Shown piece by piece: positions 21,860 to 47,867 of a DNA stretch of 48,047 nt (positions within the stretch are counted from its first letter, which is position 1; each line of letters begins with the position of its first letter). Both the position numbers and the translations under genes were made by a program. The stretch is taken from NCBI RefSeq assembly GCF_015207665.1, contig NZ_JADEWL010000045.1:1-48047 (forward strand). Reading direction: 5' to 3'. The stretch is from Plectonema cf. radiosum LEGE 06105. GTDB lineage: Bacteria; Cyanobacteriota; Cyanobacteriia; Cyanobacteriales; Nostocaceae. The notes under the pieces were generated by a model. It searched no databases. It saw only the letters and a program-made list of their open reading frames with translations, and was not told where the DNA came from.

Positions 21860-21873
21860 TTACAAATTACGAA

Positions 21874-28872: not shown

Positions 28873-29223
28873 CGGTCAGTTATCAGTTAACAGTACAGTT
28901 ATAATATTATCCTTACAAACCAGATATGGAGGAAAAAACAGAATCAATCATCGTAATCATTTTTGAAGCTGTTGCGGAATCATAAAATACGAAAGTGTAT
29001 TTTGATGGGTTATCATAACAAGCCCCAAATTAAGCGAATTATCTATAAGCGTTTTAAGAGTGTTAGTGAAGGGTGTCCTTTATGACATACAGTGAACAGT
29101 AAACAGTTATCTATTGATATGCTCCCTATCTTATCTCTGAGCATACAGCAAGTTCGGGGATTGATAACTGATTTAATGCTTGACGCTTTGAGGGTATTGT
29201 AAAACATTTTCGTATATGATTTT
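28873..29223. promoter_or_regulatory. Divergent intergenic region between CHAT-CHASE2 and sigma-like genes
   Basis: A 351-bp region between start codons of opposite polarity, so both promoters should be here. It contains CAGTTATCAGTTAACAG adjacent to the CHAT start, and the inverted pair TATGCTCC...GAGCATA near 29,118-29,146. No sigma-factor consensus could be identified with confidence. Confidence 0.4.
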
Positions 29224-29889
29224 ATGAATCAGTTAGATTTAAAATTGCGAGAGCTGATTGCATCTGTTCAACAGTTACCACCTAAAAGTTTGGAGCGTCA
29301 GCAAATTTTGGCTGAGGTGTATTTATTAGTGATGAAATCTGGCAAACTGTGGAAAGAACATACATGGTACTATAATGATGCTCTCCAAGAAATGTGGGAA
29401 TATTGTTGCGAACATTCGGAAGAATATAACCCTGAGATTAAAAGTCCGATTGTTTGGCTTGATGATGAACTAAAAAAACGATTGAGGAGAATGCGAGACG
29501 GTAAAAATAGACAGCAACGACGGTTTATTACAGCAATACAAACAGAACAAGGAATCATAATTAACCCTATAGATGGTATAGTAGCCCCTCCAGACATTGA
29601 ATCAGTGATGGAAATTTGGCAAAAAACCATTTCATGGGTGCAGAATGATTCAAATGAACGATTACGCAATATTTGTTTCCGAAAACGTCCCGAAATCAAC
29701 GCTCAGACTTTAATTTTACGACGACTTCCTCCAGATACACCTTCTTGGCAAACCATTGCCTTAGAATTTAAACTAAATCCACAAGAAGCAAAAGATTTAC
29801 CTAAATTTTACAATCGTAAATGCTTGCCTCTGTTAAGGGAATTCGGTTTATCTCAAGGTTATATAGAAGAAATCAGATATTGTTTGTAG
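29224..29889 (+). CDS. Sigma-70-like protein linked to DUF1822 (nifK-element copy)
   Basis: A 221-residue protein of the cyanobacterial sigma-like group that neighbours DUF1822 genes. It shows a helical region typical of sigma region 2 (SGKLWKEHTWYYNDALQEMW and YNPEIKSPIVWLDDELKKRL) and a C-terminal helix-turn-helix-like part (PPDTPSWQTIALEFKLNPQE). Cyanobacterial relatives are annotated as sigma-70 family, though the homology is weak. The gene starts with ATG at 29,224 without a strong ribosome site. It is divergent from CHAT-CHASE2 and followed after 32 bp by DUF1822 on the same strand. A larger 491-residue counterpart heads the equivalent cassette at 41,448. DNA binding and transcription control are inferred. 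Confidence 0.6.
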   Translation: MNQLDLKLRELIASVQQLPPKSLERQQILAEVYLLVMKSGKLWKEHTWYYNDALQEMWEYCCEHSEEYNPEIKSPIVWLDDELKKRLRRMRDGKNRQQRRFITAIQTEQGIIINPIDGIVAPPDIESVMEIWQKTISWVQNDSNERLRNICFRKRPEINAQTLILRRLPPDTPSWQTIALEFKLNPQEAKDLPKFYNRKCLPLLREFGLSQGYIEEIRYCL

Positions 29890-29921
29890 CGGCACTAAAC
29901 AAACCCGAAAAACCCAGTGTC

Positions 29922-30845
29922 ATGAATAAAAATAACCAATTTCCAACTGAGGATTGGTCAATTCCGGTACCACTAACATCAGAGATTTTACAGATAGCAG
30001 AGCAATTTGCTCAAGAGCAGTCAATTCCTAGGAAAGCACAACAGGTTTATCTCAATACTATTGCTGTATGTGCTGTGAATAACTATTTACGTATTCTGGG
30101 GATTCCCACTAATCTCACAGCCGGGGATAGTTGGAATTCTGCGGTACGTTTAGTTGAAGATGTAGCAGATTTATGGATAACTGGTAAAGGGAGTTTAGAA
30201 TGTCGTCCAATTCAATCAGGGACTTTAACTTGTTCGATTCCTCCTTTGATTGGTTTGGAAAAAATCGGCTATTTAATAGTTGAGATTGATCGAGAAGATA
30301 AACAAGCTATATTACGAGGATTTACGGCAAATAAACAATTAAGCGGGGTTTTATCTATAGATAAATTGAATTCTCTTGAAGATTTGCCCGCATACCTCGA
30401 TAAACTTAGACCATTAGTAAATCTAAGTCAATGGTTGAGAAATATTTTTGAAACTGGTTGGGAGACTACAGAAATTTTAGGTAAACAAGTAAATCAGCCT
30501 GCTTTCGCTTTTAGAAGTAAATTAAAAATAAATCATTTGCAGCGTTGTAAGCTGTTAGAATTAGGACACAAAGGTGAATTGATAGCTTTGATTGTGACAA
30601 TCACTTCAGAATTGAAATCAAATATTAATATTGTTGTCGAACTCAAGCCTGCTTCCAGTCAAATTTACCTACCTGCCAACCTACAATTAATATTATTAGA
30701 TGAGGAACAACAACCAATAATAGATACAAAAACTAAAGAAGCCAATCAGCATATCCAGTTAGATTTGACTGCTGAACCGGGAGAGCATTTTACTATTAAG
30801 GTACTCAAGGGAGAGGTGACTTTCACTGAAAACTTTATCGTTTAG
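29922..30845 (+). CDS. DUF1822 family protein (nifK-element copy)
   Basis: A 307-residue protein starting at MNKNNQFPTEDWSIPVPLTS (the frame stays open further upstream, but this ATG clears the preceding gene by 32 bp). Family features visible are the N-terminal helix-rich part with QQVYLNTIAVCAVNNYLRIL, a W-rich middle (VNLSQWLRNIFETGWETTEI) and a C-terminal beta-rich block, VELKPASSQIYLPANLQLIL, ending VTFTENFIV. The C-terminal half aligns by eye with the DUF1822 protein at 42,910. Function is unknown. It is consistently next to sigma-like and CHASE2 genes in this window, so an adaptor or regulator role is plausible. No membrane segment is present. Confidence 0.8.
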   Translation: MNKNNQFPTEDWSIPVPLTSEILQIAEQFAQEQSIPRKAQQVYLNTIAVCAVNNYLRILGIPTNLTAGDSWNSAVRLVEDVADLWITGKGSLECRPIQSGTLTCSIPPLIGLEKIGYLIVEIDREDKQAILRGFTANKQLSGVLSIDKLNSLEDLPAYLDKLRPLVNLSQWLRNIFETGWETTEILGKQVNQPAFAFRSKLKINHLQRCKLLELGHKGELIALIVTITSELKSNINIVVELKPASSQIYLPANLQLILLDEEQQPIIDTKTKEANQHIQLDLTAEPGEHFTIKVLKGEVTFTENFIV

Positions 30846-30897
30846 CAAGCATTTATTACTCATAAAAAAATACTCAATACATCGACGAGGTACATCT

Positions 30898-31263
30898 ATG
30901 TTTATACAGAATAATCCTGCGAAAAATATGACTCAAAATCAATCTTTGTTATCCCTAAGAGTATGGCGATCGCCATTGCTCGGATTAGTAAATTTATTAG
31001 TTATGGGTGGAACAATTGTATTCGGCGGAGAATTGGTGTTAGGAGAAGATACCCCGACTCCGGAAAATCGATGTTTGATTCCAGGATGCCCACCAATGTG
31101 CGTTCCCCTAGAAGCGTGCAAGCCACCTGCTCCAGCAGAGCCAATTGTCCAAAAAATAATACAATTGTATCCAGCAGCAGTAGAACAACTGCAAAAAGAT
31201 GATCCACAAGCGATAGAAAAGTTATATCAAGGTGATAGAAAAACATGGCTCTTTCGTACATAA
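30898..31263 (+). pseudogene. Short exported protein truncated by a MITE
   Basis: A 121-residue frame with a hydrophobic N-terminal segment (LLGLVNLLVMGGTIVFGGEL, ~27-46) that could be a signal peptide or anchor. A Cys/Pro-rich stretch with CLIPGCPPMCVPLEAC follows, then a helical part (IIQLYPAAVEQLQKDDPQAI). The last residues, WLFRT, are encoded by the left inverted repeat of the MITE that begins at 31,247, so the native C-terminus has been lost. It lies 52 bp after DUF1822 and probably belongs to the same transcription unit. The four cysteines suggest an extracytoplasmic location. Family not recognised. Confidence 0.55.
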
Positions 31264-31441
31264 CGTGCTTAATTTTTCATGAAGGTCGATAATTTTGTTT
31301 AAAATCAAGGCTTACAAGCAGTTATGGTCTAAATCTCAGCTTGAAAAGGTGTTTTGAAGTTAATAATGGCTGTAAGCAAATACCAGCAAAGGTTTCAAGA
31401 TTATTTTTCAGCCAATTTAGCACGCTAAGTACGGAAGAGCC
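31247..31441. mobile_element. MITE with 23-bp terminal inverted repeats
   Basis: The 23 bp at 31,247-31,269 (beginning GGCTCTTTCGTAC) recur as reverse complement at 31,419-31,441 with three mismatches, and the similarity extends a few bases inward. The 150-bp interior has no frame. It ends the exported-protein gene, supplying its stop codon. Target duplication is not clean. The ends look like those of an insertion sequence whose transposase is not in this window. Confidence 0.75.
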
Positions 31442-31455
31442 GGAAAAATTATATA

Positions 31456-31485
31456 GAGACGTGATATTGCAACGTCTCTATTTTT
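31456..31485 (+). terminator. Intrinsic terminator-like hairpin
   Basis: A GAGACGT...ACGTCTC stem followed by ATTTTTTT directly downstream of the MITE. It is a relative of the GAGACGTAGCA hairpins and the only one with a clear run of T, so it could end the sigma-like/DUF1822 transcript. The rest of the gap up to 31,774 holds a palindromic repeat and no gene. Confidence 0.55.
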
Positions 31486-31560
31486 TTATGGTTACATCAT
31501 GTCCGGTTAAACACTTGTAATCAAGTTAGCTGGGGAATACTTAACAATTACCCATTACCA

Positions 31561-31615
31561 GTCGTCGGTACGGGAACTGTGCAACGGCTTCCGCGTAACC
31601 GGCGTTTCCCGGTCA
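31561..31615. repeat. Palindromic repeat, left copy of an inverted pair
   Basis: GTCGTCGGTACGGGAACTG and CAACGGCTTCCGCGTAACC, followed by GGCGTTTCCCGG, match the reverse complement of 35,079-35,136 with a few changes. The two copies flank the haloperoxidase-RTX segment in opposite orientation. Confidence 0.8.
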
Positions 31616-31774
31616 ACATGATATTATAGATTAATTCAGGAGTAAGTATTGACAGAATCATCAAAGTATGGGAATAAATATTATTTTCCTGTTATCCAAA
31701 TTGCGATCGCGTAGTGCAAGGGAGGCGATCGCAATTTAGGTGAAACAGATTCTACAAGGGAAAAGGAATATTAA

Positions 31775-33385
31775 TTAACCAAAGTTATCAAACACAAAAT
31801 TACCGATATTTTCACCGACACTGACACCATCTACATTTGCAGCGTTAATATGAACTCCACCAAAAAGACGACTATCAGCATTTTCATCAGCAGCTTGGGA
31901 AAAACTACCATATGAACGAGAAACACCTGGTAATTCTTGAGAAGGAATCTCAAAACTGGTATTATCGCCAAAAAAGCCAGCCAGAATAGCACTAGCTGCA
32001 CCACCAAAAACAGAATGTCCGGATATGTAATCGGGAAATGGAGGAGTATCTAATAAAGGTTCCCAATTTGGATCAGCAATAGTATTCGGATTATTATCTG
32101 CGTCGGCTTCTCGAATTGCAGTTATGGGACGAAGTTGTTCGTAGACATACTTTGCGTCCCATGCTGCAATCCCTGCATCAGCTAAACCAGTATTTAACAC
32201 TGCAAATAACTTGGCATTATCTTCTAAAGAGTTACCTTTATCTAATGCCACCTCTTGAGCAATTTGATTCCACTGACCAGGTGGTCTAAATGAATCATTA
32301 CGGTCATAAGCCCAAAATAGGGCGATTTCAGTTTGGTCTGCGTTACGAGTGGTACTATTTTCTGCACCCAATTCCTTGACTTGATTTAGCTGTGTCGCGT
32401 AAAAAGGACTGTTGTATTGCGGAAATGTATTGGGACGAAATTGATTACCGCTTTCCAAGACAAATGGAGTCACTCCTCCCCAATCTGGGAATAATGCTTC
32501 GTCTACAAAACCGGGTATTTGATCTGTGGTGTCACCATCACTAAAAGTAAATTGCCAATCACCTATACCATTTCCCGGTGTAAAGGGTACTTGTGCGGTT
32601 GCTGAACCATCATTTTGACGTTCGTTGATTATGTTGTCAGCAGCTTGTTTTCCTAGTTCAAACCCATTGTCCTTTGCTTCACTATCAGGAATTGCTTCAA
32701 GAAAATCGTTTCGTAAGCTTTGAATTGTAGATGCTTGTGTAGGAAACAAATCAATTAAAGTTTCAGAAGCTGCTCCCACTACCGCAGCTTCGTCAGATGC
32801 ATCTGGTGCTTGCAAAACAGCATCATAAATTGCTTGGTGAACAATTGCTTGTTGATGTGCTGCTAATGGGGGTGGAGTTCCATCACCACCATCTTTTCCA
32901 GTAGCTTGGATGGTGTTTAAGAGAATCGAATTCCATTGAATAACAGCGTCACCTTGAGTAATTAATTCAGCGTCTGAAATTATGCTTCCAGTATCTTCAT
33001 TACCCGGTTCTACCTCTGCAAATAGATAATATAAACCTGGAGAAACAACACTAGCAGTGCGAAAATCAGACCCTGCGAAATCGATAGTTAAAGTTTGAAA
33101 TTCTCCGGGAGCTAGAGTAATGTTGTCTTGTTTAAGAGTACCTAAAAGTTCATCAGTACCTTTGAGCAAATCATTTCCATCTGCACTTACATCGTCTATT
33201 TTGTTGAGATTATTTAAATCTAATACTTTATCGGTAGAAGCATAAAGTTTTAGGTCTAAAGGTGCGTTAAAATCTGTATTTCCTTGATTGGTAATAGTAA
33301 CTTCAACTTTACCTTGTTCGTCAGGAAAAATTGTTGGTGTTTGAATTACTTCACCGAAATCAACAGTTAAATTTGCGTCACTCAT
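31775..33385 (-). CDS. Vanadium-dependent haloperoxidase with N-terminal CARDB-like domain
   Basis: A 536-residue enzyme. Residues ~10-125 are a CARDB-like beta-sandwich (VEVTITNQGNTDFNAPLDLK). Residues ~145-536 are the PAP2/vanadium haloperoxidase fold with Lys412 and Arg419 (KYVYEQLRP), Ser455-Gly456-His457 (PDYISGHSVF) and Arg506 with His512 (SRLFGGVHIN). All vanadate ligands are thus present. It is distinct from the first haloperoxidase at 13,894, so the element carries two different ones. A strong ribosome site AGAGGAGA precedes the ATG. The CARDB domain and the neighbouring RTX gene suggest it works outside the cytoplasm, although no signal peptide is visible; type I secretion is possible. 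Halide preference unknown. Confidence 0.92.
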   Translation of the reverse strand: MSDANLTVDFGEVIQTPTIFPDEQGKVEVTITNQGNTDFNAPLDLKLYASTDKVLDLNNLNKIDDVSADGNDLLKGTDELLGTLKQDNITLAPGEFQTLTIDFAGSDFRTASVVSPGLYYLFAEVEPGNEDTGSIISDAELITQGDAVIQWNSILLNTIQATGKDGGDGTPPPLAAHQQAIVHQAIYDAVLQAPDASDEAAVVGAASETLIDLFPTQASTIQSLRNDFLEAIPDSEAKDNGFELGKQAADNIINERQNDGSATAQVPFTPGNGIGDWQFTFSDGDTTDQIPGFVDEALFPDWGGVTPFVLESGNQFRPNTFPQYNSPFYATQLNQVKELGAENSTTRNADQTEIALFWAYDRNDSFRPPGQWNQIAQEVALDKGNSLEDNAKLFAVLNTGLADAGIAAWDAKYVYEQLRPITAIREADADNNPNTIADPNWEPLLDTPPFPDYISGHSVFGGAASAILAGFFGDNTSFEIPSQELPGVSRSYGSFSQAADENADSRLFGGVHINAANVDGVSVGENIGNFVFDNFG

Positions 33386-33655
33386 AAGTATCTCCTCTTT
33401 TTTCTTTTTTTGTATGATGGATTAAGCAGATAGATTATATTGAGAAAAATCCATTTTTCTAGTAATAATTAATCACAATTTAACTTGCTTATCACTTATT
33501 ACTAGAAAACTCTTATTGATAGGACTTACCCGATGAACCGCACCCGATGGGTGAATGTCACAATAGAGGGGTTAGTGCATGATACTACAAGCTGCTTATT
33601 TTTACCTTTAAGATAGTTGAAAGTGTCAGACAACGCCATAAAAATGTGCCAGAGA

Positions 33656-34921
33656 CTAGACAAAAACAAATTGAGTAGTATCATTTAGACTCAGAGTCTC
33701 AACTGATATTTCCTGAACAAGAGCAATTAATTCGGATGTATTTTGTCCTTCATTTAAAAATATTGCCGTACCAGAGATATTATCAATAGGAGATGTACCC
33801 AAAGAATACATACTCTCTGAACCTGCTAATTGAATTTTATCGGCACCACGAATCACACCATCACCAACAAAACCAAAATCAGTAATTAAAGCATAATCCC
33901 CAATGCCATTGCTGTCGATGTTGCTATTGTTATAGAGAACTACATCTTGAATCACAACATCATTCCCATTTTCATCTCTACCGTTAGCTTCAGCAAGTCC
34001 TAAAACAAAAGTGTCGTTGTCTCTACCACCAGTTAAAGTATCTCTCTCCCCAAAACCAAATCCTAATTCTGAACGACCAAAAAAATCTGTATCAGTACCA
34101 ATTAACTTATCCTTACCTCTTCCACCCTTAAGTTCATCATTACCTTGTCCACCAGTAAGTTCGTCGCTTCCTTGATTTCCTTCTAGGATGTCATTTCCCT
34201 TACCACCATAAACTTTGTCGTTACCACCTCCACCAATTACAGTATCATCACCACCGACAGTTGAAAAAGGTTCTCCCTCAAAACTATCACCGTAAAGAGT
34301 ATCTTCTCCTTGATTTCCATAAACTAAATCGTTACCATCTCCACCTTCAGCATAATCATTTCCATCTCCACCATAAATAGTATCTTCACGGTCTTGCCCA
34401 TAAAGGATATCATCTCCCTCGTTGCCATAAATAGTATCATTACCGCTTCCAATTAAGCTGGAATTTTCACTAGCAGAATAGTCTCCAAAAATCAGATCAA
34501 CTCCGGCATTTCCTTCGATAACATCATTTTCACCTCCACCACTAATAATGTCATCTCCAGCTTGACCAAAAATTTCGTCATCGCCACCCAGAGCGATAAT
34601 ATTATCGTTTATATCAGTACCGATAATTGTTTCACCATTGGGAGTACCGATGATTCTATTCAAACCAGAAATAGTACTATCAGTTGTGGGTACTTGTAAA
34701 TCTGGTTCAAATCCTGGTGTTTGACTTGGAGGTGGTTGTAATGCTTCAGATTCTTGTTGCTGGAGGATTTCTAACCTAGTTTGTTGCTCTGGAGTCAATT
34801 GGATACCTACTGGTTGAGTAGATTCAAAAATCGCCTCTTGTGTTGCACTAGGTTGTTCGCCTTCTGCTTCTGCGACTGCTTCAAGTTGTAATTCTTGTTC
34901 TAATGTTAGATTTTCTGTCAT
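33656..34921 (-). CDS. RTX-type calcium-binding repeat protein
   Basis: A 421-residue acidic protein with no N-terminal signal peptide. Residues ~1-90 are Gln/Glu-rich (LEQELQLEAVAEAEGEQPSA). Residues ~95-275 hold at least ten glycine-rich nonapeptides of the GGxGxDxxx kind (GGDGNDYAEGGDGNDLVYGN), which form a calcium-binding beta-roll. The C-terminal ~130 residues are a beta-rich tail with ERDTLTGGRDNDTFVLG, as in haemolysin-type cyanobacterial proteins, and may contain the type I secretion signal. A GAGGG ribosome site precedes the ATG. It is 270 bp upstream of the haloperoxidase on the same strand, so co-expression and co-secretion are plausible. Confidence 0.88.
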   Translation of the reverse strand: MTENLTLEQELQLEAVAEAEGEQPSATQEAIFESTQPVGIQLTPEQQTRLEILQQQESEALQPPPSQTPGFEPDLQVPTTDSTISGLNRIIGTPNGETIIGTDINDNIIALGGDDEIFGQAGDDIISGGGENDVIEGNAGVDLIFGDYSASENSSLIGSGNDTIYGNEGDDILYGQDREDTIYGGDGNDYAEGGDGNDLVYGNQGEDTLYGDSFEGEPFSTVGGDDTVIGGGGNDKVYGGKGNDILEGNQGSDELTGGQGNDELKGGRGKDKLIGTDTDFFGRSELGFGFGERDTLTGGRDNDTFVLGLAEANGRDENGNDVVIQDVVLYNNSNIDSNGIGDYALITDFGFVGDGVIRGADKIQLAGSESMYSLGTSPIDNISGTAIFLNEGQNTSELIALVQEISVETLSLNDTTQFVFV

Positions 34922-35505
34922 TGTTTTTCCCTCATTAATGATGTGTCATGAACAATTACAATAACTAATCAATGCAAATAGTTCTCTAAAACTAATTCGC
35001 AATTAATTACTAAACTACGTAGAAACACATGATTGATGCAAATTCTTCAGAAAGCCAACTTTAACAGGATAAAACTTACCGGGGAACGCCGGCCCTCCTT
35101 ACGCGGAAGCCGTTGTACGGCTCCCGTACCGACGACTATTTGTTAGTTTTACGAACAGTTGATTTCTGGCGAATTACTTATTCAAAATATAAATTCAACT
35201 TTCACACAATATTCAGATTAAGCTGACTTATATCTCTAGAGATTTATCTGATGAGCTAGAGCTTTATAGGGCTTTACTCTCTTTTATTTAAAACTATATT
35301 CTGTGAATGTCAATACATTTTTCCAAGTTTAAATCACATAATTCTCTTAATTATGTTTTTGAGAAAATTAAAATATTCTTAAAATATTCTTAAATTATCT
35401 TTAAATTTGAATAACTTTGAAAATATTCAGCTTTAGCTTGCGAAAAAATGGTTTTAGTGACGTAGTAACTAATGACATGGGTGGGAAAGGAAAGGAAAAC
35501 AAACA
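34922..35505. promoter_or_regulatory. Divergent spacer between RTX and HTH genes
   Basis: A 584-bp AT-rich region. It contains the right copy of the palindromic repeat (35,079-35,136) and a short direct repeat TTAAAATATTCTTAAAATATT near 35,367-35,395. No gene is visible. It should carry the promoters of the leftward RTX/haloperoxidase pair and the rightward HTH gene. Confidence 0.45.
35079..35136. repeat. Palindromic repeat, right copy of an inverted pair
   Basis: Reverse complement of the repeat at 31,561-31,615, with a small internal difference (GGCCCTCCTTACGCGG versus GGTTACGCGG). Together they enclose the haloperoxidase and RTX genes. Confidence 0.8.
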
Positions 35506-36030
35506 ATGAAAATTGGGTATTGCTCAACTAAAAACCAACCATTTCCCAATCAAAACTACTGTCTGACAACGGAGGAAACGATGAAGATAGCTAAAAGTTT
35601 GTATTTAACATCTTCCCAACGCCAGATATTGCAAAAAAGTTTAGAATATAATTTACGTCCTGAATTTCGTCGTCGAATTCATATTATGCTACTTGCGGAT
35701 GCAGGTGAATCTCAAACAAATATATGTAAAAAACTAGGTTGTTCACATGAGGCTGCCCGGCACTGGATTTGTATGTTAAAAACAAATCGGTTTTATAAAT
35801 GGGATGATTCTCCTATCGGAAGACCTAAGATAGTGAGCGAAAAATATATTCAACGGTTACAAGAATTAGTAATTAATAGTCCGCGAGAATATGGTTATGC
35901 ATTTGAAAGATGGACGGCAGAATGGTTAAAAAAACATTTAGCAAAAGAACTAGGAATTAGTATTAGTAACTATCATATTACTCGGTTACTAAAATCAATG
36001 GGACTTTCTACTGTAAACAAGAATAAATAA
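35506..36030 (+). CDS. Helix-turn-helix protein (IS630-type N-terminal domain), stand-alone
   Basis: A 174-residue protein. A second Met at codon 26 (MKIAKSLYLTSSQRQILQKS) may be the real start, since the first 25 residues look unrelated. The region ~30-130 is a homeodomain-like helix-turn-helix with ESQTNICKKLGCSHEAARHW, then GRPKIVSEKYIQRLQELV and a second winged element ending LGISISNYHITRLLKSMGLS. This is the DNA-binding half of IS630-type transposases, but no DDE domain follows and the frame closes naturally. Such stand-alone proteins occur in cyanobacteria. It is either a domesticated regulator or a transposase remnant, and I lean to regulator. Confidence 0.65.
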   Translation: MKIGYCSTKNQPFPNQNYCLTTEETMKIAKSLYLTSSQRQILQKSLEYNLRPEFRRRIHIMLLADAGESQTNICKKLGCSHEAARHWICMLKTNRFYKWDDSPIGRPKIVSEKYIQRLQELVINSPREYGYAFERWTAEWLKKHLAKELGISISNYHITRLLKSMGLSTVNKNK

Positions 36031-36059
36031 AATAAATAATTGAGATTAAAGAGTACTTA

Positions 36060-36629
36060 TTAGAGCCAATTTCCAACCAAAATAAAAGAAGACCAAAAAT
36101 AAGGAATACTATATTCTTCTTGGTTTAATAAAGCTAATTGAGCATGACGTAAAGCTTGTGATTTAGTGATATGAGGTTTGTTCAATTCGTGATAAAAATG
36201 ACTATAAATTAGGTAAGCATCTTGCCAAGTGGTTATTGCATTTTCAAATTCTCCTTGTGCAAATTGCAATTTTCCTTTAACATCTAATGATTGTGCATAA
36301 ATCTTAGAGATTTTATTTTTTGGTAAAGATTGCAATAAACTAAGTGAATGATTGATAGTTTTTTCAGCTTTTTGCCATTGTGCTAATTTTTGATACCCTA
36401 AAGAGAGATTACTTAAAGCTATGGCTTGATATTTTGAAACTGCTTGTTTTAATAATTCTATTGCTTTGTCAAATCTTCCTATTTCATAAAATTTTTTACC
36501 TTGTTCAATTAAATTTTGTGTTGGTAAAGAGTTGATAAATGGAGGTGTTGCTAAAACCGGCGGCAATCCTGTTAAAATTAATGATATTAATAATATTAAA
36601 ATTAAATGTTTTAATCTTTTGATTAACAT
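36060..36629 (-). pseudogene. TPR-CHAT protein lacking the CHAT catalytic core (in-frame deletion)
   Basis: Starting at MLIKRLKHLILILLISLILT (a signal peptide), the protein has ~100 residues of TPR-type helices (LIEQGKKFYEIGRFDKAIEL; AIALSNLSLGYQKLAQWQKA). It then jumps at about residue 143 into HFYHELNKPHITKSQALRHA, ending PYFWSSFILVGNWL. That last part is the C-terminal end of a CHAT domain. The middle of CHAT with the His and Cys residues is missing, so the caspase-like activity is lost. An upstream Met (frame from 36,671) is less likely because it adds residues before the signal. It may persist as an exported TPR protein. Confidence 0.65.
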
Positions 36630-36687
36630 CTTAATAATGAGTTGACAGTTGACAGGACACAGGGAACACACTTCACTGTCAACTGAT

Positions 36688-38241
36688 TTAATTCACAAGA
36701 TGTAGTAATTCAATTTTTGTAACGCGATCGCCATTTACGACTATTTTTTTGATACATCCTTGCAATAAAGCTTTTTTATCCTCTATCTGCAATTGTTGCC
36801 AAAATTTAGGATTTGAAAACGCTTGAATAACTCGCTCTTTAGCAATCAAATATTGAACGGAATTATTAGTAACAGTGGCTAAAATATCAGCAATCTGCAT
36901 TTTAATATCCTCCTTAGCTGTTTCAATTGCGGAATTTGATGGTAGTGCTTCAAGAGTATTTAACGATGCTCTAAGGGTTTTTACTTGAGATGGTTCTTCT
37001 ATGACTTTGGTTTTTTGTTCTGCTAAGACTGCTAATTTTTCGGCTTCTTTAACTAAATATTCAATCACCTGCTTTTCTAAATTATCCGAAGAAATCATCT
37101 TACCGTTACTACAAGCACCTGTGCGATAAAAACTACATTGGTAATGATGTCGAATAAAATTCTGTTTTTTGACTAATTTCTTACACTGACGACTGTAAGC
37201 TGCATCACAATAAGCACATTTAATTAAGTTGGCAAAGGGATTAGTATATTTTTGTTCGCTAACCCATCGGTTATTACGGTTTCCACGAATCATGGTTTTG
37301 ATGCGTTCGTGTTCTTCACGGGTAATAATCGCTTCCGAATCGTGGGTTCCCCAGACAACTTCCCATTCGTCAAAGGGTTTACGGTGTCCTTTGGAACGAA
37401 CTACTGTGTTATAAGGGGTTCCTCCTGCATACACGGGATTGACAAGAATTGACCGTAATCCGGAAACTGACCATTTTAAACCTGTATGGGGATAGCGTAA
37501 ATTTAACCCGCTTCCACGAGATTTATTGATATTTGCCAATATAATTTCGTCTTCTTCTGCCAATATATTAATTTTATCGTTGTGGAATTGAGGAACAGCA
37601 TTTGCTTGAATTCCTAGAATATCGTGTAATTTTTTCGCTGTTTGAGATACTGTACCGACTAGAAAAAAAGTGTCAAATACTAATCGCATTAATTGAGAAC
37701 GTGTTAATTCAATTTGTTGTTCAATCAAACAAACACAAGGACTATTATCTCTTTGATATTTATCCGAATCAACTGTATATCCTAATGGAGCATTCCAATG
37801 AGCTTTTTTATTAGCTTTGCGAGTATCTCGTTCTTTTTTGACTCGCATTCCTAACATTTTTACTTCATATTTACTCGCTGCTAATCTGACATCAATTGTT
37901 AATTCTCCACCAATACTTGATATATCAAATGGCTCATCAATTGCAGTTGGTTCGATATTTTTTTTCTTTAAAGCATCCATCAATTTATAAAAGGTTATTG
38001 ATGATGAAGTTAAACGGTCTATTCTAATAAATAATAACTGGGATACTTGACCTTTTCTTAATGCCTGAATATCATCAATTAACCGTAAAAGCCCTTTACG
38101 TTTGTCGCTAGTACGACTTTCAACGTCATAATACAACTTGGTGGCTCCCGCACTCCGCAAACGACGCATTTGCTTAATCAGCGCTCCTTCATCCTCTGCT
38201 TGTTCATCGGTGCTAACGCGAGCATATCCCCAAATGTCCAT
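36688..38241 (-). CDS. xisF-like: XisF-like large serine recombinase of the nifK element
   Basis: A 517-residue site-specific recombinase. The resolvase-type catalytic domain (1-~150) starts MDIWGYARVSTDEQAEDEGA with nucleophile Ser10 and continues VSQLLFIRIDRLTSSSITFY. The recombinase domain (HWNAPLGYTVDSDKY onward), a zinc-ribbon with CAYCDAAYSRQC and a coiled-coil C-terminus follow. The length and the IDEPFDISSIGGELTIDVRL block agree well with XisF, which excises the fdxN element in Anabaena heterocysts. It starts ~55 bp from the nifK junction and reads away from nifK, with GAAGG as ribosome site. It should excise the element and rejoin nifK. XisF needs XisH and XisI helpers, which were not seen here. 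Confidence 0.92.
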   Translation of the reverse strand: MDIWGYARVSTDEQAEDEGALIKQMRRLRSAGATKLYYDVESRTSDKRKGLLRLIDDIQALRKGQVSQLLFIRIDRLTSSSITFYKLMDALKKKNIEPTAIDEPFDISSIGGELTIDVRLAASKYEVKMLGMRVKKERDTRKANKKAHWNAPLGYTVDSDKYQRDNSPCVCLIEQQIELTRSQLMRLVFDTFFLVGTVSQTAKKLHDILGIQANAVPQFHNDKINILAEEDEIILANINKSRGSGLNLRYPHTGLKWSVSGLRSILVNPVYAGGTPYNTVVRSKGHRKPFDEWEVVWGTHDSEAIITREEHERIKTMIRGNRNNRWVSEQKYTNPFANLIKCAYCDAAYSRQCKKLVKKQNFIRHHYQCSFYRTGACSNGKMISSDNLEKQVIEYLVKEAEKLAVLAEQKTKVIEEPSQVKTLRASLNTLEALPSNSAIETAKEDIKMQIADILATVTNNSVQYLIAKERVIQAFSNPKFWQQLQIEDKKALLQGCIKKIVVNGDRVTKIELLHLVN

Positions 38242-38295
38242 ACAGTATACCTTCGAGCAATTTTATCTATTTTACCTGATAGTAAACATATTAGT

Positions 38296-38553
38296 TCTTT
38301 ACTGTTCACCGAACCCGTAGACTTTATCATTGGTAATTCCTACGGTAAGTATTTAGAGCGCGATACTAAGATTCCTTTGATTCGTATCGGCTATCCTATC
38401 ATGGACCGCCACAATCTACACCGCTACGCTACCATCGGTTATCAAGGTACTATCAATCTACTTACTTGGGTTGTAAATGCTATCTTTGAGGATATCGATC
38501 GCAATACCAATATTCCTTCTAAGACTGACATTTCCTTCGATTTGATTCGTTAG
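38296..38553 (+). CDS. nifK: Nitrogenase MoFe protein beta subunit, 3' fragment (interrupted gene)
   Basis: The last ~85 codons of nifK, reading SLLFTEPVDFIIGNSYGKYL through RHNLHRYATIGYQGTINLLT and ending KTDISFDLIR. NifK makes the beta subunit of dinitrogenase, holding half of the P-cluster ligands and the tunnel interface with NifD. Residues upstream of SLLFTEP have no NifK character, so the coding sequence is split here by the leftward element. After excision, the left half (outside the window) would be joined to it. The stop TAG is at 38,551-38,553. nifE follows in the same direction after 274 bp. Confidence 0.92.
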   Translation, partial: SLLFTEPVDFIIGNSYGKYLERDTKIPLIRIGYPIMDRHNLHRYATIGYQGTINLLTWVVNAIFEDIDRNTNIPSKTDISFDLIR

Positions 38554-38827: not shown

Positions 38828-39418
38828 ATGAAAATAACTCAAAGTAAAATTAATGAATTGCTAACTGAACCAGGATGCGAGCATAATCATCAAAAAGATG
38901 GGGAAAAGAAAAATAAAGCTTGTAAACAACAAGCTCAACCGGGTGCAGCACAAGGAGGTTGTTCTTTTGATGGAGCGATGATTGCTCTGGTTCCCATTAC
39001 CGATGCTGCTCATTTAGTACATGGACCAATTGCTTGTTCTGGTAATTCTTGGGGTAGTCGTGGTAGTCTTTCTTCTGGTCCAATGCTTTACAAAAAGGGC
39101 TTTACTACTGATTTGAGCGAAAATGATGTAATTTTCGGTGGCGAAAAAAAACTTTACAAAGCTATCCAACACGTACACAAAAATTACAACCCCGCTGCTA
39201 TTTTTGTTTACTCTACCTGCGTCACAGCTTTGATTGGTGAGGATATAGATGCTGTTTGTAAAGCTGCCGAGAAGAAATTAGGTGTTCCGATTATTCCTGT
39301 AAATGCTCCGGGTTTTGTTGGTAGTAAAAATCTCGGTAATCGTCTGGCTGGAGAAACTTTATTAGAACACGTTGTCGGTACTGCTGAACCAAAACGTTTA
39401 CAACAACACCTTTTATGA
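38828..39418 (+). CDS. nifE: FeMo-cofactor scaffold protein NifE, 5' fragment (interrupted gene)
   Basis: NifE builds the FeMo-cofactor precursor together with NifN. The N-terminal ~188 residues are clear: [56 protein letters not shown], the cluster-region cysteine in [13 protein letters not shown], and [16 protein letters not shown]. After AEP the frame runs KRLQQHLL to a TGA at 39,416 that belongs to the element side. A full-length NifE is ~470 residues, so more than half lies beyond the element, outside the window. Without excision only a truncated protein can be made. Bases after 39,391 resemble the expected nifE continuation (TTTACAACA...CCTTTT) in another frame. Confidence 0.93.
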
Positions 39419-39451
39419 TATGATTCCAGGAAACGATTTGAATCGATTCTT

Positions 39452-40858
39452 ATGAGAGTTTACGGTTATGCTCGCGTTAGTACCCAAGAACAAGCTGAGG
39501 AATTTGATGCATTAAATCAACAGATAGCGAGATTAAAAGCAGCGGGTGCGAGGGAAGTATTAATAGATATTGAATCTGGACGTAATGATTCGAGGAAGCA
39601 GTTTAACGAGTTGTTGAGGTTAGCGCAACATCACATTGTTGACGAAATAATTATAACTCGTATAGACCGCTTGGGTCGGAGTGTGATTACAATTCACAAG
39701 GCGATCGAAGTATTTGTGAAACATAATGTGAATTTGCGGGTATTAGATGCACCAGTCGATCCAAATAGTCCTTTTGGTTGGTTTAGTATTAATCAGATGT
39801 CGGGATTGGCTGAATTTGAATCGAGGCTTTTATCCCAACGGGTGAAACAAGGAAACGAATATTTTCGACAGCAGTTAAAGTTTTGCGTTGCTCCATTTGG
39901 ATATACCAAGGATGAAAATCATCGGTTGACTCCGAATCAAAATATTCACGAAAAGTCGGGTAAAACTTATTTTGAGTTAGCCAAAATAATTATTGATTTA
40001 ATTTTAGAAAGGCGATCACTAAAGGATGTATGTAACTATATTTATACCGAATATGAAATAGTGTTTACGGTATCAGGGTTGCGAGATTGGTCAAGAAATC
40101 TTGCATTACAAGGACATACAGCATATTTTGTCAAAAAGAAAAAAGGTATTAATCGGGAACCGATTATTAATTTTAATACCCATGAGGCTTTAATTAACTC
40201 GACAACATTAGATGCAATCGAACGTAAGTTGTCAGCAAATAGGAAATACCGTAGTTCCGCACAATCAACCCGTGGAAACTATCCCCTTGCAGGTTTAATA
40301 AAATGCGTCCATTGTGGGGGTAGTATGTATCGTAACTTTTCCCGACATCAAACAAAAACCGAATATATGCGGTGTGTTAATTATAGTAAACCAGGGTTAT
40401 ATCATTGTGAGAATTCAAAATGCACCCGATTGAGGGAAATTATAGCCAAGACTATTAGGACTTTGTGTAAAAATGCTCCGAATTTAATCGAGCATTTAGA
40501 AAATCATTCACAGACGACAGAAGTTATCAATACCAAAGAGATTGAAAAATTAACCAACGAATTGTCAGTTTTACGGGGACTTCGCAGTTCAAACCCTGAT
40601 ATAATTGCGGCGATGGTCAAAATAGAAGCAACTATTAATACCCTATCAATCCCGGTAAAAATAGTTGATAGTAATGGGTTAGAGAATGCTAAAAGAAAAA
40701 TTGCGATCGCGTCTCAAGCAGCATTTTGGGAATCATTGGATGATCAGGAACTCAAATTAGCATTATCGGAATTTGTGGAAAAAGTTGAGGTGGATTCCGA
40801 GGGGAATGTAACTCCGAATTTTAAATTACCATTCACCCTATCCTCAATAGTTCCATAG
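39452..40858 (+). CDS. Large serine recombinase of the nifE element
   Basis: A 468-residue recombinase. The catalytic domain begins MRVYGYARVSTQEQAEEFDA (Ser10 nucleophile), with IIITRIDRLGRSVITIHKAI. A DNA-binding recombinase domain follows, then a zinc-ribbon (LIKCVHCGGSMYRN and a second pair in YHCENSKC) and a coiled-coil C-terminus (IEKLTNELSVLRGLRSSNPD). It differs clearly from the nifK-element enzyme, so the two elements use separate recombinases and probably separate sites. It starts ~60 bp from the end of nifE homology and points into the element. The palindrome CGATTTGAATCG lies just before its ATG (39,434-39,445). The expected role is excision in heterocysts. Confidence 0.92.
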   Translation: MRVYGYARVSTQEQAEEFDALNQQIARLKAAGAREVLIDIESGRNDSRKQFNELLRLAQHHIVDEIIITRIDRLGRSVITIHKAIEVFVKHNVNLRVLDAPVDPNSPFGWFSINQMSGLAEFESRLLSQRVKQGNEYFRQQLKFCVAPFGYTKDENHRLTPNQNIHEKSGKTYFELAKIIIDLILERRSLKDVCNYIYTEYEIVFTVSGLRDWSRNLALQGHTAYFVKKKKGINREPIINFNTHEALINSTTLDAIERKLSANRKYRSSAQSTRGNYPLAGLIKCVHCGGSMYRNFSRHQTKTEYMRCVNYSKPGLYHCENSKCTRLREIIAKTIRTLCKNAPNLIEHLENHSQTTEVINTKEIEKLTNELSVLRGLRSSNPDIIAAMVKIEATINTLSIPVKIVDSNGLENAKRKIAIASQAAFWESLDDQELKLALSEFVEKVEVDSEGNVTPNFKLPFTLSSIVP

Positions 40859-40980
40859 CTGTTGATAAACTCTTGGGGAGACATATCCCCAACCTTTAAA
40901 TCTCCGTAGTATTTTTCATAAGCTTCAAGTAACCTGTCATTAAGCATTTTAAACACTTGTTGAGAATGTGTCGAAGTCAT
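40744..40980 (-). CDS. Small hypothetical protein overlapping the recombinase 3' end antisense
   Basis: A 78-residue frame. The first ~45 residues (SQQVFKMLNDRLLEAYEKYY, DLKVGDMSPQEFINSYGTIE) look like a soluble helical protein and lie outside the recombinase. The last ~38 codons overlap the recombinase 3' end on the opposite strand and have a composition expected of an antisense shadow. It could be a real small gene with a tail fixed by overlap, or chance. No ribosome site is seen. Confidence 0.35.
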   Translation of the reverse strand: MTSTHSQQVFKMLNDRLLEAYEKYYGDLKVGDMSPQEFINSYGTIEDRVNGNLKFGVTFPSESTSTFSTNSDNANLSS

Positions 40981-41016
40981 AACATAAACAGTGTAGCGAT
41001 GTATTTAGGTTATTTG

Positions 41017-41400
41017 TTAGCGAAAATTTTTCTGTTTGCAGCAAACAACTTGAAAATTGCCAAATCCATCAAGTGAATAATATCCGGTGTCTTCTATCAA
41101 TAGATGTATAACCACCTTGACAATAGTGTCAAAAGCTGAAGAATCTATTAGTAACAAATGATAGATACATTTAGTAGTCAATTGATGAGAAATTACCATG
41201 GTAGCGGATGAATCCAATTTTCCATACTTTGAAAGGTGAATCGATCGGAAAATTGGTTCAAACTGCATAATCACTTTACAGAGGCACCCATAAATATATA
41301 TAGCAATATAGGACACCTGCATTAATGCGGCAAAGATGCAAATCAATAATAATGATGAATTTTTATGGGTGAAATAGCAATCATGTATTGTTAATATCAT
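41017..41400 (-). CDS. Doubtful hypothetical ORF
   Basis: A 127-residue frame, rich in Ile, Cys and Tyr, in the gap between the recombinase and the sigma-like gene. Its C-terminal part (FDTIVKVVIHLLIEDTGYYS) looks more protein-like than its N-terminal part. There is no ribosome site, recognised motif or partner. It may be a degraded gene. The rest of the 40,981-41,447 gap holds no other candidate apart from the mini-ORF at 41,418. Confidence 0.2.
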   Translation of the reverse strand: MILTIHDCYFTHKNSSLLLICIFAALMQVSYIAIYIYGCLCKVIMQFEPIFRSIHLSKYGKLDSSATMVISHQLTTKCIYHLLLIDSSAFDTIVKVVIHLLIEDTGYYSLDGFGNFQVVCCKQKNFR

Positions 41401-41406
41401 TAAATA

Positions 41407-41441
41407 TAGGAGAAGGAATGTTTCAAATAATTATCTGGTAA
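41407..41441 (+). promoter_or_regulatory. Strong ribosome site with 7-codon leader ORF before the sigma-like gene
   Basis: AGGAGAAGGA is followed immediately by ATG and a 7-codon frame (MFQIIIW, stop TAA at 41,439-41,441), ending 6 bp before the first ATG of the sigma-like gene. The gene itself has no ribosome site of its own, so translation may be coupled to this leader. Confidence 0.4.
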
Positions 41442-41447
41442 TATTTT

Positions 41448-42923
41448 ATGCTTATGGAAAGACGGGGAAACATCATCAAGAAGTTTTCTAGCTTTATCAG
41501 CTTTACAGGTGATAATCATCAAATAAAATTGAGTTGGCAGGTTGACTTGACATTAGAAAATAGTATCAAATTAAAAGTAGCAACAGACCCAGAGGCGAAA
41601 GAAAGTTTTTGGGTGCAATATTTTCTGAAAGTGTTATTAATTCAACACCAATTTGAAAATCCGGAATATATTCCCACAGCAAAAAGGCATTTTTCAGCTT
41701 ATTTACAAGAAGCCTGTTTTAAAGCTGCCAAAGATATACATCATGAATTGAAGTATATTAAGCATAAATATTCTTTAGAAGAATGTTTTCAAATAGCAAA
41801 TATTGCTGCTAGTTCACCGAACCAATTTTTCAATAATTTTAATTTATCACGAGATAAAATTAATATAGAAGCATATGCAATAACTGCTTTTAAACGATTT
41901 ATTCGCAATCAAATTTATCAGCAAGATTTAGAAGCGAGAAGAACAAAATTTTCTAATTATGGTTTATTAAAGAATTTAAGTACGAAGGAATTAAATAAGG
42001 CTTTGCTCTCGCAAAACGTTAATAGTCAACAAATCATTTTATATCGTTTAGGTTGGCAATGCTTTAATGAAATTTTTCAGCCACCATCTAACCAGTTGAG
42101 TCGCACACCAAATCCTTCAGAAGAAGACTTTACAGTAATTGCTAATTATTACAATCAACGTTGCAAGCAACTGAATCTTATCAATGTATCAGCAACAGAT
42201 ATCACAATTAAAGAAATACTTGAAACTTGTATAAATGCAGCTAAAAATTATCGTACTAAGCAATATTTTTCCTTTGAAGAAAATTATCATGGTATTTGTG
42301 ACGATACACCATCTACCTTGGATATATTAATACAGCAGGAAGAATGGCAGCAAGTACAAGTGATTATTGACAATTTATTCACCAATATGCCAAAACTATG
42401 TCAAATCATTTTTCAATTATGGCAGGGATTAAACTTAACTCAAACAGAAATAGCCAATCTTCTCAAATCTAAATATCCAGAGTTGCAAAAACAGTATCAA
42501 GTAGCTCGTCAGTTAAAAAGATATACAAGAAGTATATTAAGAGAATTTGCCGAGGAATGGAATAAAGTGAATTCAGAAATCTACCTGGATAGCGATAAAG
42601 ATATTGAAAGAATTAAATCAGCTTTAGATAAATGTTTAGAATTATATTGCAAACAATTTTTATTCTCGATTCTAGATGAAACATTTCAGAAGTTTATTGT
42701 TGAAAAGCAAAAAAATTGTGATTTGAGCCATCCTTTAAGTTTAGTAATGGTCATTAAATTAAATTTCATTGATTTATTCCAAAATGAACTTGAAAAAAGT
42801 ATGTGTTTAGCTGCTAATTCTCTTTCAGCAGTTAATTCTAAGCTGGTTGACATTGTAAATGAGTGGATAGAAATTAAAGAAATTAAAGAAATTAAACAGG
42901 ATAATTTTTATGATAGGAAATAA
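41448..42923 (+). CDS. Large sigma-70-like protein linked to DUF1822 (nifE-element copy)
   Basis: A 491-residue protein. A start at codon 3 (MERRGNIIKKFSS, 41,454) is also possible. The N-terminal half is helical without a known motif (PTAKRHFSAYLQEACFKAAK; ITAFKRFIRNQIYQQDLEAR resembles sigma region 2 helices). Residues ~310-380 resemble sigma region 4 with a helix-turn-helix (LWQGLNLTQTEIANLLKSKY then ARQLKRYTRSILREFAEEWN). The C-terminal ~100 residues are a helical domain of unknown role. It heads a tight plus-strand set: its 3' end overlaps the DUF1822 frame by 14 bp, and CHAT-CHASE2 follows. It is much larger than the 221-residue counterpart at 29,224. Promoter recognition is inferred, not shown. 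Confidence 0.65.
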   Translation: MLMERRGNIIKKFSSFISFTGDNHQIKLSWQVDLTLENSIKLKVATDPEAKESFWVQYFLKVLLIQHQFENPEYIPTAKRHFSAYLQEACFKAAKDIHHELKYIKHKYSLEECFQIANIAASSPNQFFNNFNLSRDKINIEAYAITAFKRFIRNQIYQQDLEARRTKFSNYGLLKNLSTKELNKALLSQNVNSQQIILYRLGWQCFNEIFQPPSNQLSRTPNPSEEDFTVIANYYNQRCKQLNLINVSATDITIKEILETCINAAKNYRTKQYFSFEENYHGICDDTPSTLDILIQQEEWQQVQVIIDNLFTNMPKLCQIIFQLWQGLNLTQTEIANLLKSKYPELQKQYQVARQLKRYTRSILREFAEEWNKVNSEIYLDSDKDIERIKSALDKCLELYCKQFLFSILDETFQKFIVEKQKNCDLSHPLSLVMVIKLNFIDLFQNELEKSMCLAANSLSAVNSKLVDIVNEWIEIKEIKEIKQDNFYDRK

Positions 42924-44172
42924 TCAGATGTTGAAATTAGAAGATTTGTTAGAAATTTATCCCGAACATTTATGGTTGGAATTTTCTGAAAAAGAACAGG
43001 AAACAGCATGGAATCAAAGTAGCGTAAATCATGACCAAAATGCAACTGCTTGTCACAGAGCTTTTGTTAATAACTTATGTTTAAATACTTTCGTTAAATG
43101 GTTGGAAGATGAACCGGATTTACCCGAAAAATTCCAGATACCCGCACCATCTCCAGATTTGCATCGACAATGGGAATTTGTGAATGGAATTGAGTTAACT
43201 TTTAATCGAACTCGTTTAGTTTTAATTCCCACTGAACAAGATAATATCGATGAGTTTCGTATTCCCCAAGAATGGATTGATATTCCTAATTGGGTTGCTA
43301 ATTACTATGTTCCGGTACAAGTAAATTTAGCAGAAAATTGGTTAAGGATATGGGGATTTATTAGTTATGGACAAGTTATCAAGAAAGCAAAATATGATTC
43401 TCTCGATAGAAGTTATTGTGTAGATAATTGGGATTTAACTGCGGATATTAACGTTATGTGGGTAGCTCAGCAACTTTGTGCAGTTAAGGAACTAAAAGTT
43501 AAGCCATTACCAAGTTTATCAAAAGTTCAAGCACAAGAAATTATTCACCAATTAAGCAAATCAACTGTTTATTCCCCTCGTTTAGATATTGATTTTAATT
43601 TGTGGGGAGCAATCTTAAATGACAATGAATATCGCTTTATTTTGTATAGTCAGAGCATAAAAAAATCACACAATAATCTTATGAAAAATACAAATAAAAT
43701 TGTATATAATTTGAGTTCATGGTTTGATAATATCTTTAATGAAGGTTGGTGTTCTGTTGATGATTTATTTAGTTTGACAGATACAAGGGCTTTTCAATTC
43801 AGAAGCGATTCTGTTTTGAATGAAGTTTGTGTCAAAGGAGCTAAACTGATTGATTTAGGGATGCAAATAGAAAATAAATCTGTAGCGTTACTGATTGGTT
43901 TATCACCGCAAATTGATAATAAAGTTGGTATTCGCGTACAGCTTTATCCAGCATCTGGAGAAACTTATTTACCCGCTCATATTAAATTAAGTTTGCTTTC
44001 TGAGTTGGGAACAACTTTACATTCAGTTGAATCGAGAAGTTACGATAATTATATTCAATTGAAAAGATTTAAACTTCCCTTGGGTAAACATTTCAGTATT
44101 CAAGTAGCTCTCAAAGATGTCCAAATTATCGAGAATTTTATTCTTGAAGGGTTCGCCTCTTCCGATATATGA
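42910..44172 (+). CDS. DUF1822 family protein (nifE-element copy)
   Basis: A 420-residue protein overlapping the sigma-like gene by 14 bp, so translation is probably coupled. The second Met (MLKLEDLLEIYPEHLWLEFS, 42,928) is an alternative start. The N-terminal half includes HRAFVNNLCLNTFVKWLEDE and a WDLTADINVMWVAQQLC block. The C-terminal half has SWFDNIFNEGWCSVDDLFSL and the family's beta-rich end, RVQLYPASGETYLPAHIKLS, then FSIQVALKDVQIIENFIL. This end aligns by eye with the shorter DUF1822 protein at 29,922. It has no signal or membrane segment. The function of the family is unknown; the setting suggests a link between the sigma-like and CHAT-CHASE2 proteins. Confidence 0.82.
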   Translation: MIGNNQMLKLEDLLEIYPEHLWLEFSEKEQETAWNQSSVNHDQNATACHRAFVNNLCLNTFVKWLEDEPDLPEKFQIPAPSPDLHRQWEFVNGIELTFNRTRLVLIPTEQDNIDEFRIPQEWIDIPNWVANYYVPVQVNLAENWLRIWGFISYGQVIKKAKYDSLDRSYCVDNWDLTADINVMWVAQQLCAVKELKVKPLPSLSKVQAQEIIHQLSKSTVYSPRLDIDFNLWGAILNDNEYRFILYSQSIKKSHNNLMKNTNKIVYNLSSWFDNIFNEGWCSVDDLFSLTDTRAFQFRSDSVLNEVCVKGAKLIDLGMQIENKSVALLIGLSPQIDNKVGIRVQLYPASGETYLPAHIKLSLLSELGTTLHSVESRSYDNYIQLKRFKLPLGKHFSIQVALKDVQIIENFILEGFASSDI

Positions 44173-44626
44173 TTAAGTTCTTTAATTCCGCAAAAACTCT
44201 ACAAAGAATGAATTACAAAATATAAAAATAATTTCTTAATGCCAATGCTCTAATTTACAAGTGTAGGCAAGAAGTTGATTTTTGATGAATTTTGTTATTT
44301 TGATATTTTTTAATAACTAATAGTTATTTTGATAGTATCATCTGATGCCAATCTAAAGAATATTCCTTTGGATAGATAAATTAGGATATTGTCGATCGCA
44401 CCTGGATTAAAAATTGGTTTAAAAACCTTGCAAAAGCATTTAAAAACCCCGGTTATTTTTTGCGTTGTCGAGAATGGTGTAAAATATGATATTAAATTCA
44501 CCCGAATGTACCAGTTGGAATAATCCTTAAGAGTAGCCTCCAAAGATTAGTTCCCAGGAACCGATACTGATAACTGATAACTGTCAACTGTCAACTGTCA
44601 ACTGTCCTCTGTCCTCTGATAAATTT
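44173..44626. promoter_or_regulatory. Spacer before CHAT-CHASE2 with eight tandem heptamers
   Basis: A 454-bp AT-rich region without a supported gene. At 44,566-44,621 there are eight consecutive heptamers (two ACTGATA, three ACTGTCA, ACTGTCC, TCTGTCC, TCTGATA) ending 5 bp before the CHAT-CHASE2 ATG. A leader of this type is also found before nifE. It may influence mRNA stability or translation. Confidence 0.6.
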
Positions 44627-47038: not shown

Positions 47039-47089
47039 AAGGAAGTTTAAAGGCTAAAATAAAAATGTAGAATTGAAAAATTTGAAATT

Positions 47090-47654: not shown

Positions 47655-47867
47655 ATACTTTTACAGCAAACCCTACTTATAAACGCAGAGGGACACAAAG
47701 TTAAACGCAGGGTGACGCAGAGTTTTTCATCATGCATTAAATAGTTCCAATATTAAGCGGAAAAAATCTGATTCAAAAACCTTGTAGAAACGCGATACCC
47801 TAGGTGTCTCTACATTTTCAATTCATAGCACGATTCAGCAATGCCTATGGTTTTAAAATCAAACAGG
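47655..47867. other. Intergenic, repeat-rich, no gene
   Basis: It contains CTCTGCG-type dispersed tracts (AAACGCAGAGGGACAC, GACGCAGAG) and the weak hairpin GTAGAAACGC...GTGTCTCTAC near 47,785-47,815. No open frame of protein character was found. The decayed 3' part of the PIN gene might have been here but is not recognisable. Confidence 0.5.

Follow-up and report, generated by a model that had tools for sequence, protein, structure and literature searches.

Two nitrogenase genes, nifK and nifE, of Plectonema cf. radiosum LEGE 06105 (genome G000) are split by XisF-type elements that have probably exchanged ends through an inversion, an arrangement from which an inversion plus an excision would rebuild both genes. 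The window, by which we mean the whole 48,047-nucleotide stretch of DNA analyzed here, is contig C316 of this 7.6-Mb genome, which is assembled in 323 contigs. From this arrangement we infer that a recombinase at each gene acts on the sites described below, that the reactions take place in heterocysts, and that they may proceed in either order.

The 3′ end of nifK (exon 3; 38,294..38,553, plus strand) starts abruptly at about residue 430 of NifK and runs to a normal stop, as an initial annotation of this DNA had proposed. That annotation also placed an outward-facing XisF-type recombinase of 517 residues at the nifK edge, and this is borne out: recK (36,688..38,241, minus strand; 517 aa), the XisF-family serine recombinase of the nifK site, starts 52 bp before the exon, is transcribed away from nifK, contains the domains Resolvase, Recombinase, and Zn_ribbon_recom, and scores 507 bits against the NCBIfam XisF model NF041201 (cutoff, 375). 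The crossover core GTTCT (38,294..38,298, plus strand) matches C250:61,285, and the element arm of the right half-site (38,277..38,293, plus strand) mirrors the arm next to nifK exon 2 on that contig. The 5′ half expected elsewhere in the genome was indeed found on C250 of the same assembly, as an exon 1 from about 58,245 and an exon 2 ending at 61,285, parted by a 1.8-kb element that encloses a phage-integrase-family (tyrosine) recombinase and is bracketed by a 13-bp direct repeat, TTTTGTGCAAGGT. Joining at the TTTTGTGCAAGGT repeat and at GTTCT gives an unbroken NifK of 511 aa. A NifK search of G000 found no whole NifK, returning three NifK pieces and paralogues (PF00148 has eight matches in the genome). 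The gene is thus split, without an intact copy, at a conserved site: a NifK 3′ piece starting at residue 414-427 lies within 3 kb of a recK relative at 31 of 33 loci in named genomes, which agrees with the earlier remark that elements in nifK have been reported; many species share this site. The two exceptions are L053, whose flanks lack NifK and NifE within 3 kb, and L068, where the contig end cuts the recombinase.

Some features of the nifK elements vary among strains. The nifK recombinase of Scytonematopsis contorta (L062) faces toward nifK exon 3, not away from it, and Tolypothrix brevis (L063) has one of the smallest nifK elements seen, with about 4.2 kb between nifK residues 427/428; G021 is similar. 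Within the composite element beside nifK exon 2 of G000 lies a gene for a PfaA-type polyketide synthase (C250:63,485-68,761; L010:13486-18762; TIGR02813 over cutoff), which we take to be an HglE-like protein of heterocyst glycolipid synthesis.

Directly downstream of nifK, a second split was overlooked by the initial annotation. Exon 1 of nifE (38,828..39,390, plus strand) ends in the crossover core TGAACC (39,385..39,390, plus strand), which matches C243:65,645 (minus strand), the contig that carries nifE exon 2 and nifN on its minus strand. Beyond the core lie the element arm of the left half-site (39,391..39,415, plus strand) and recE (39,452..40,858, plus strand), the XisF-family serine recombinase of the nifE site (488 bits; cutoff, 375). 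Joined at TGAACC, the halves encode a NifE of 459 aa without six extra residues. Our first choice of crossover, AAACGTTTA, was dropped because it leaves those six residues, whereas uninterrupted NifE in four genomes reads GT[GAE]EPEYTT; the idea of a palindromic core that removes polarity, which was built on that wrong choice, was dropped as well. Cross-recombination between the nifK and nifE sites was rejected on paper, since it would fuse nifK to nifE. Matches to recE at an E value of ≤1e-100 occur in 22 of 217 family genomes. In G083 (C1:6,956,159-6,957,566) the element carries recE on its nifE-3′ side; the other annotated genomes have it beside nifE-5′. In G070 (C366:22,252-23,653) recE is broken into two frames, yet nifE is still split; this strain may be unable to restore nifE, or it may use another recombinase.

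The course of the DNA between these gene ends was followed with the help of a sister genome, G140 (Richelia sp. SL_2_1, L037). In that genome, the 133-kb contig C270, which contains no N, is collinear in pieces with C243 (41.7 to 75.7 kb) followed by the window (0.4 to 47 kb); homologues of C243:65.7-75.7 kb are joined within it to homologues of the window (from window position 430), and nifE-3′ (19.7-20.5 kb, minus strand) and nifK-3′/nifE-5′ (83.6-84.8 kb, plus strand) share this one contig. Because C270 joins homologues of the window and of C243, the cargo to the left of nifK-3′ leads after 48.4 kb to a nifE-3′ facing the opposite way. This right-right block (window 1..38,293, no strand assigned) connects the right half-site of nifK with that of nifE, the latter on C243, over 48.4 kb in total, and carries WD40, CHAT-CHASE2, DUF1822, glutaminase, and other genes. 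The cargo of at least 38 kb that had been placed before recK is present, but it is not that of a simple nifK element, as it leads to the inverted nifE 3′ half and not to nifK 5′.

The left-left block begins in the window (39,391..48,047, no strand assigned) and continues via contig C9 as far as the left half-site of nifK, which is on C250, a distance of about 79 kb, of which about 13 kb is estimated from G140. Contig C161 of G140 extends the right end of C250 into sequence present at G000 C9:71-3,203, and C9:11.5-43.6 kb corresponds in pieces to the part of G140 C270 that lies to the right of the window, read backwards from 133 to 105 kb. The G000 contigs form a chain, spanning three contig gaps bridged from the sister species, of C250 (nifK-5′), C9, the window reversed, and C243 reversed (nifE-3′, nifN), which is the normal order after one inversion of the nifK-3′/nifE-5′ block. 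The two joins that one inversion predicts are seen in two different assemblies, one in C270 of G140 and the other in C9 of G000. The chromosome order is then nifK-5′, left-left block, nifE-5′ and nifK-3′ backwards, right-right block, and nifE-3′ nifN nifX. The ends of C243, C316, and C9 break at short GATGGGG-type repeats, which may explain the assembly gaps in the nif region.

With the nifK half-sites opposed and the DNA to the left of the window leading to nifE 3′, excision by a single recombinase cannot be the whole story. The cores of nifK, of nifE, and of the middle piece of nifH (see below) are inverted and not in the direct orientation that one recombination could delete. The proposal that the element is excised by its own recombinase thus stands as to the XisF-family recombinase flanking the nifK site, but with inverted half-sites that recombinase alone would invert the DNA, not delete it. 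Both half-site pairs are inverted in the scrambled state, and we suggest that recombination by recK at nifK, or by recE at nifE, would invert the intervening DNA and join that gene, at the same time turning the other half-site pair into direct orientation. The second recombinase would then excise all of the extra DNA as one circle and join the second gene. Either order would yield the same intact nifK-nifE-nifN.

To place G000 among its relatives, 192 family genomes were searched with NifK, and 40 with a weaker best match or from the same genus were searched again; G108 (Calothrix brevissima NIES-22), G133 (Nostoc carneum NIES-2107), and G141 were added through recE. The gene is split near residue 429/430 in 36 genomes, a survey in which split copies alongside an intact second copy can be missed. 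Both pieces share a contig in 24 of these, directly oriented in 20 and inverted in 4 (G003, G088, G123, and G133); in the other 12, G000 and G140 included, the two pieces lie on separate contigs or just one of them was recovered. G097, where an intact nifK occurs together with a nifK 3′ piece and the 5′ part of nifE is present twice, stands outside the nifK count and was assigned to neither nifE orientation, and G068 (45% recombinase) was not counted. Among the 21 genomes with a close recE, the nifE halves share a contig in 13, being direct in 6 (G083, G108, G037, G070, G018, and G066) and inverted in 7 (G003, G088, G133, G141, G140, G020, and G049); G000 is among the other 8.

The nifK/nifE topology of G000 recurs inside one contig in G003 (8.48 Mb), G088 (9.0 Mb), and G133 (8.35 Mb), with no N in the stretches read; these three belong to one genus, and a fourth genome, G141, shows the nifE half of the topology. 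In G020 and G049, half of the nifE operon (nifE-3′, nifN, nifX, DUF269, nifW, hesA, hesB, and fdxH) is inverted as one block, and in Westiellopsis prolifica (G123) a nifD-3′/nifK-5′ block, located at a scaffold start, is inverted between the nifD and nifK sites; the nifD site there has the core GGTCTGGTGA, at which joining leaves the NifD frame open. In a phylogenetic tree of 21 RecE proteins, from which G070 was left out (its recombinase is in two pieces and its nifE is normal), the inverted label needs three changes, each forced by well-supported branches, when the resolved genomes only are counted (8 inverted rows, G000 taken as inverted, versus 5 normal). Label shuffles needed as few as three changes in 82 of 500 cases, and there is no strong clustering. 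The inverted nifE state was gained or lost at least three times on this tree, among the resolved genomes. G045 (98% NifK) has clean empty nifK and nifE sites, and neither a close recK nor a close recE was found in it; this strain lost the elements, or may never have had them. NIES-2107 holds a second, intact nif cluster, so selection on its scrambled copy could be relaxed.

Simulated inversion at nifK followed by excision at nifE restored both genes in G003, G088, and G133, giving a NifK of 511 aa in each and open NifE frames of 474, 466, and 469 aa, respectively, from the first Met. The excised composite circles, with two recombinases each, measure 12,983, 17,635, and 12,278 bp. The reverse order, nifE first, was run for G003 and G088 and gave an identical product. 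The joins predicted in NIES-2107 are GTTCA for nifK and GAACCTGAA for nifE. Simulated inversion at nifE alone made the gene continuous in G020 (residues 1-464 match) and G049 (467-aa open reading frame). Cores, picked by eye as the shared string, were identical in 9 of 10 site pairs, the nifE pair of G083 being one base off; a core repeated at both junctions restores the frame on joining. Most of the circle junctions are near-palindromic. The nifE circle junction of G000 carries a dyad of 27/30 (best of 2,000 shuffles, 19), and the nifK circle junction has one of 19/30, within reach of shuffles (maximum, 20). Eight further circle-junction dyads score 13 to 21, four of them above every shuffle; G003 nifK (20; shuffle maximum, 20), G088 nifE (18; 18), and G123 nifK (18; 19) are within shuffle reach, and G003 nifE (13) does not exceed them. 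A simple Nei-Gojobori count on two scrambled sister pairs gave dN/dS values of 0.11 for recK, 0.17 for recE, and 0.03 to 0.13 for exons between G000 and G140, and 0.06, 0.09, and 0 to 0.11, respectively, between G003 and G088; the maximum across the recombinases and every exon piece tested was 0.172. Both recombinases and the exons are under purifying selection.

A third gene, nifH, is the only one inverted within one contig of G000, itself one draft assembly. On C250, exon 1 (1,236-1,388) and exon 3 (13,940-14,320) are on the plus strand and exon 2 (5,671-5,946) is on the minus strand; a third interruption follows exon 3, and exon 4 comes after it, at 34,151. Recombinases of the region lie at C250:1,418 (plus strand) and 4,191-5,633 (minus strand). 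A simulation that inverts at the first site and excises 12,302 bp at the second joined exons 1 to 3 in frame, restoring nifH up to the third interruption. The second site has a 15-bp core, GTGGCGGTTTCGCTA, and the first only CC; the circle-junction dyads are 18 and 17 (P of 0.015 and 0.02). The inversion breakpoints (2,994/3,110 and 5,945/6,282) both fall inside elements. In G140 the same nifH pieces are normally ordered, and exon 2 is itself interrupted once more. G045 also has the normal order; it lacks the first element and retains just residues 2-84 of the second recombinase (C106:22,003-22,251), although its nifH is still split by about 25 kb. The normal order in these two genomes indicates that the inversion is derived in G000.

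In the same cluster, nifD (C250:35,690-58,000; L009, L010) is split by two neighboring elements, the first with an XisF-type recombinase and the other with an XisA-like gene whose phage-integrase match is below the Pfam cutoff; the middle exon is about 40-45 bp (GLPFRQMHSWDYS). This one nif cluster thus has at least eight interruptions (nifD, two; nifH, three; nifK, two; nifE, one), and recK, recE, the nifD recombinase, and three nifH recombinases adjoin their junctions and exceed the NF041201 cutoff. The nifD region also holds an elongation factor G paralogue (C250:about 48,300-50,409; L009, L010) with Pfam EF-G domains; such paralogues inside elements are noted in passages of Hilton, Meeks and Zehr 2016 (PMC4874684).

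Hilton et al. (PMC4874684) list, in the part of their survey that concerns these genes, eight elements and two variants for nifK and two elements and one variant for nifE, bracketed by direct repeats and excised, and they describe seven cases with gene sections in opposite directions as “likely due to mis-assembly.” Applied to our data, this explanation would leave ordinary direct-repeat elements in nifK and nifE, with the opposite orientations as assembly errors. Draft assemblies do dominate the set, several G000 contigs end in GATGGGG-type repeats, and the G123 case sits at a scaffold start. We nevertheless consider it quite improbable: the two joins predicted by one inversion each turned up in a different assembly, three genomes of one genus hold the whole arrangement in contigs of more than 8 Mb with no N in the stretches read (a fourth showing the nifE half), the nifH breakpoints fall inside elements, and the inverted state is also found at other genes and in other genera. 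The arrangement could also be real but dead, restoration having been destroyed so that the nif genes are not rebuilt in these strains. The recE of G070, a genome of normal orientation, is split in two frames, as such decay would have it; against it, the cores match, dN/dS does not exceed 0.172 for the exons and both recombinases between scrambled sisters, and no other nifK or nifE copy was found in the G000 genome, so that we think a dead state improbable. We therefore read the opposite-orientation cases as real, and as split genes that would be rebuilt by inversion plus excision.

How the ends came to be exchanged is a separate matter. A circle with both attachment sites and both recombinases may have integrated at nifK and then recombined in the chromosome at nifE, producing the inversion directly. 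The composite circles are indeed compact and carry two recombinases (13.0, 17.6, and 12.3 kb, with 12.3 kb for nifH), and the direct-orientation alternative would delete exons. We hold this origin to be rather doubtful, as the normal nifH order in G140 and G045 is the starting state for a plain two-breakpoint inversion, and the two-site circle is thus not needed for nifH. An inversion by chance, its two breakpoints falling within elements, is the other candidate. This plain inversion accounts for nifH, and either origin could account for nifK/nifE. The expectation that the two blocks would be simple halves of the elements found at nifK and nifE in relatives was not borne out: nifK-element genes of G083, G104, and G118 adjoin nifE sites in G000, and the blocks of G003, G088, G133, and G141 have only recombinase ends in common with the elements of NIES-22. 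As the blocks are not plain element halves, the nifK/nifE inversion breakpoints could not be placed. Both cargo blocks of G000 contain related cassettes (window 27,427-30,845 and 41,448-47,038), partly in opposite orientation, of DUF1822 with CHAT-CHASE2, one with a sigma-70-like gene below cutoff; they are possible substrates for homologous inversion.

On balance, we favor the wider interpretation that heterocyst formers carry true scrambled genes and that nitrogenase gene assembly regularly involves site-specific inversion, either by itself or with subsequent excision by a second recombinase. Scrambling would arise repeatedly, since inversions are repairable when their breakpoints fall inside elements, and the need for two recombinases would act as a two-key lock. 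That such a lock protects against accidental loss or excision is a guess about the benefit. The usual view is that heterocyst development deletes the interrupting DNA. In G020 and G049, which are scrambled at nifE alone, one inversion would restore the operon with no DNA lost, and this could make the developmental switch reversible. If the arrangements work, the dismissal of opposite-orientation cases as mis-assembly needs revision, and the tolerance of nif operons for inversions would be explained. The composite circles of 12 to 18 kb, with two recombinases, are compact natural examples in which ordered inversion and excision are directly testable. Annotation that expects direct repeats will miss or misjoin scrambled genes.

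Working arrangements of this kind would also mean that bacteria, like ciliates with other machinery, unscramble genes by coupled recombination steps. In the scrambled genes of ciliates, inverted segments are turned round to make a working gene in the differentiated nucleus; the machinery is unrelated, and here it would be two site-specific recombinases with named sites. Hin systems consist of a small serine invertase, two like inverted sites, and an enhancer. The recombinases found here are instead proteins of 468-517 aa with zinc-ribbon domains, and the left and right sites differ outside the core. Hin-type switches, as outlined in PMC8987985, share with our case inverted sites, a serine recombinase, and expression changed by flipping DNA, but here the recombinase is of the large XisF type, left and right sites differ, a second recombinase is needed, and a split coding sequence is rebuilt where those switches flip a promoter. 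The sigK skin element and SP-beta/spsM (PMC5025042, PMC4191935) are alike in that differentiating cells regain an intact gene when a recombinase removes a prophage-like element; the accounts given there are of simple excision of one element, with no inversion described, unlike the arrangement here. Among the papers listed in searches of an open-licence library of published articles, none reported inversion at these genes, and the relevant passages of PMC3542288 and PMC3610870 describe excision only. The XisF/XisA/XisC elements, as treated in sections of PMC4874684, come closest, sharing the genes affected (nifK, nifE, nifH, and nifD), the recombinase family, a recombinase adjoining the junction, short repeated cores, and a very variable cargo size; the present case departs from them in its inverted half-sites and its pair of interlocked elements.
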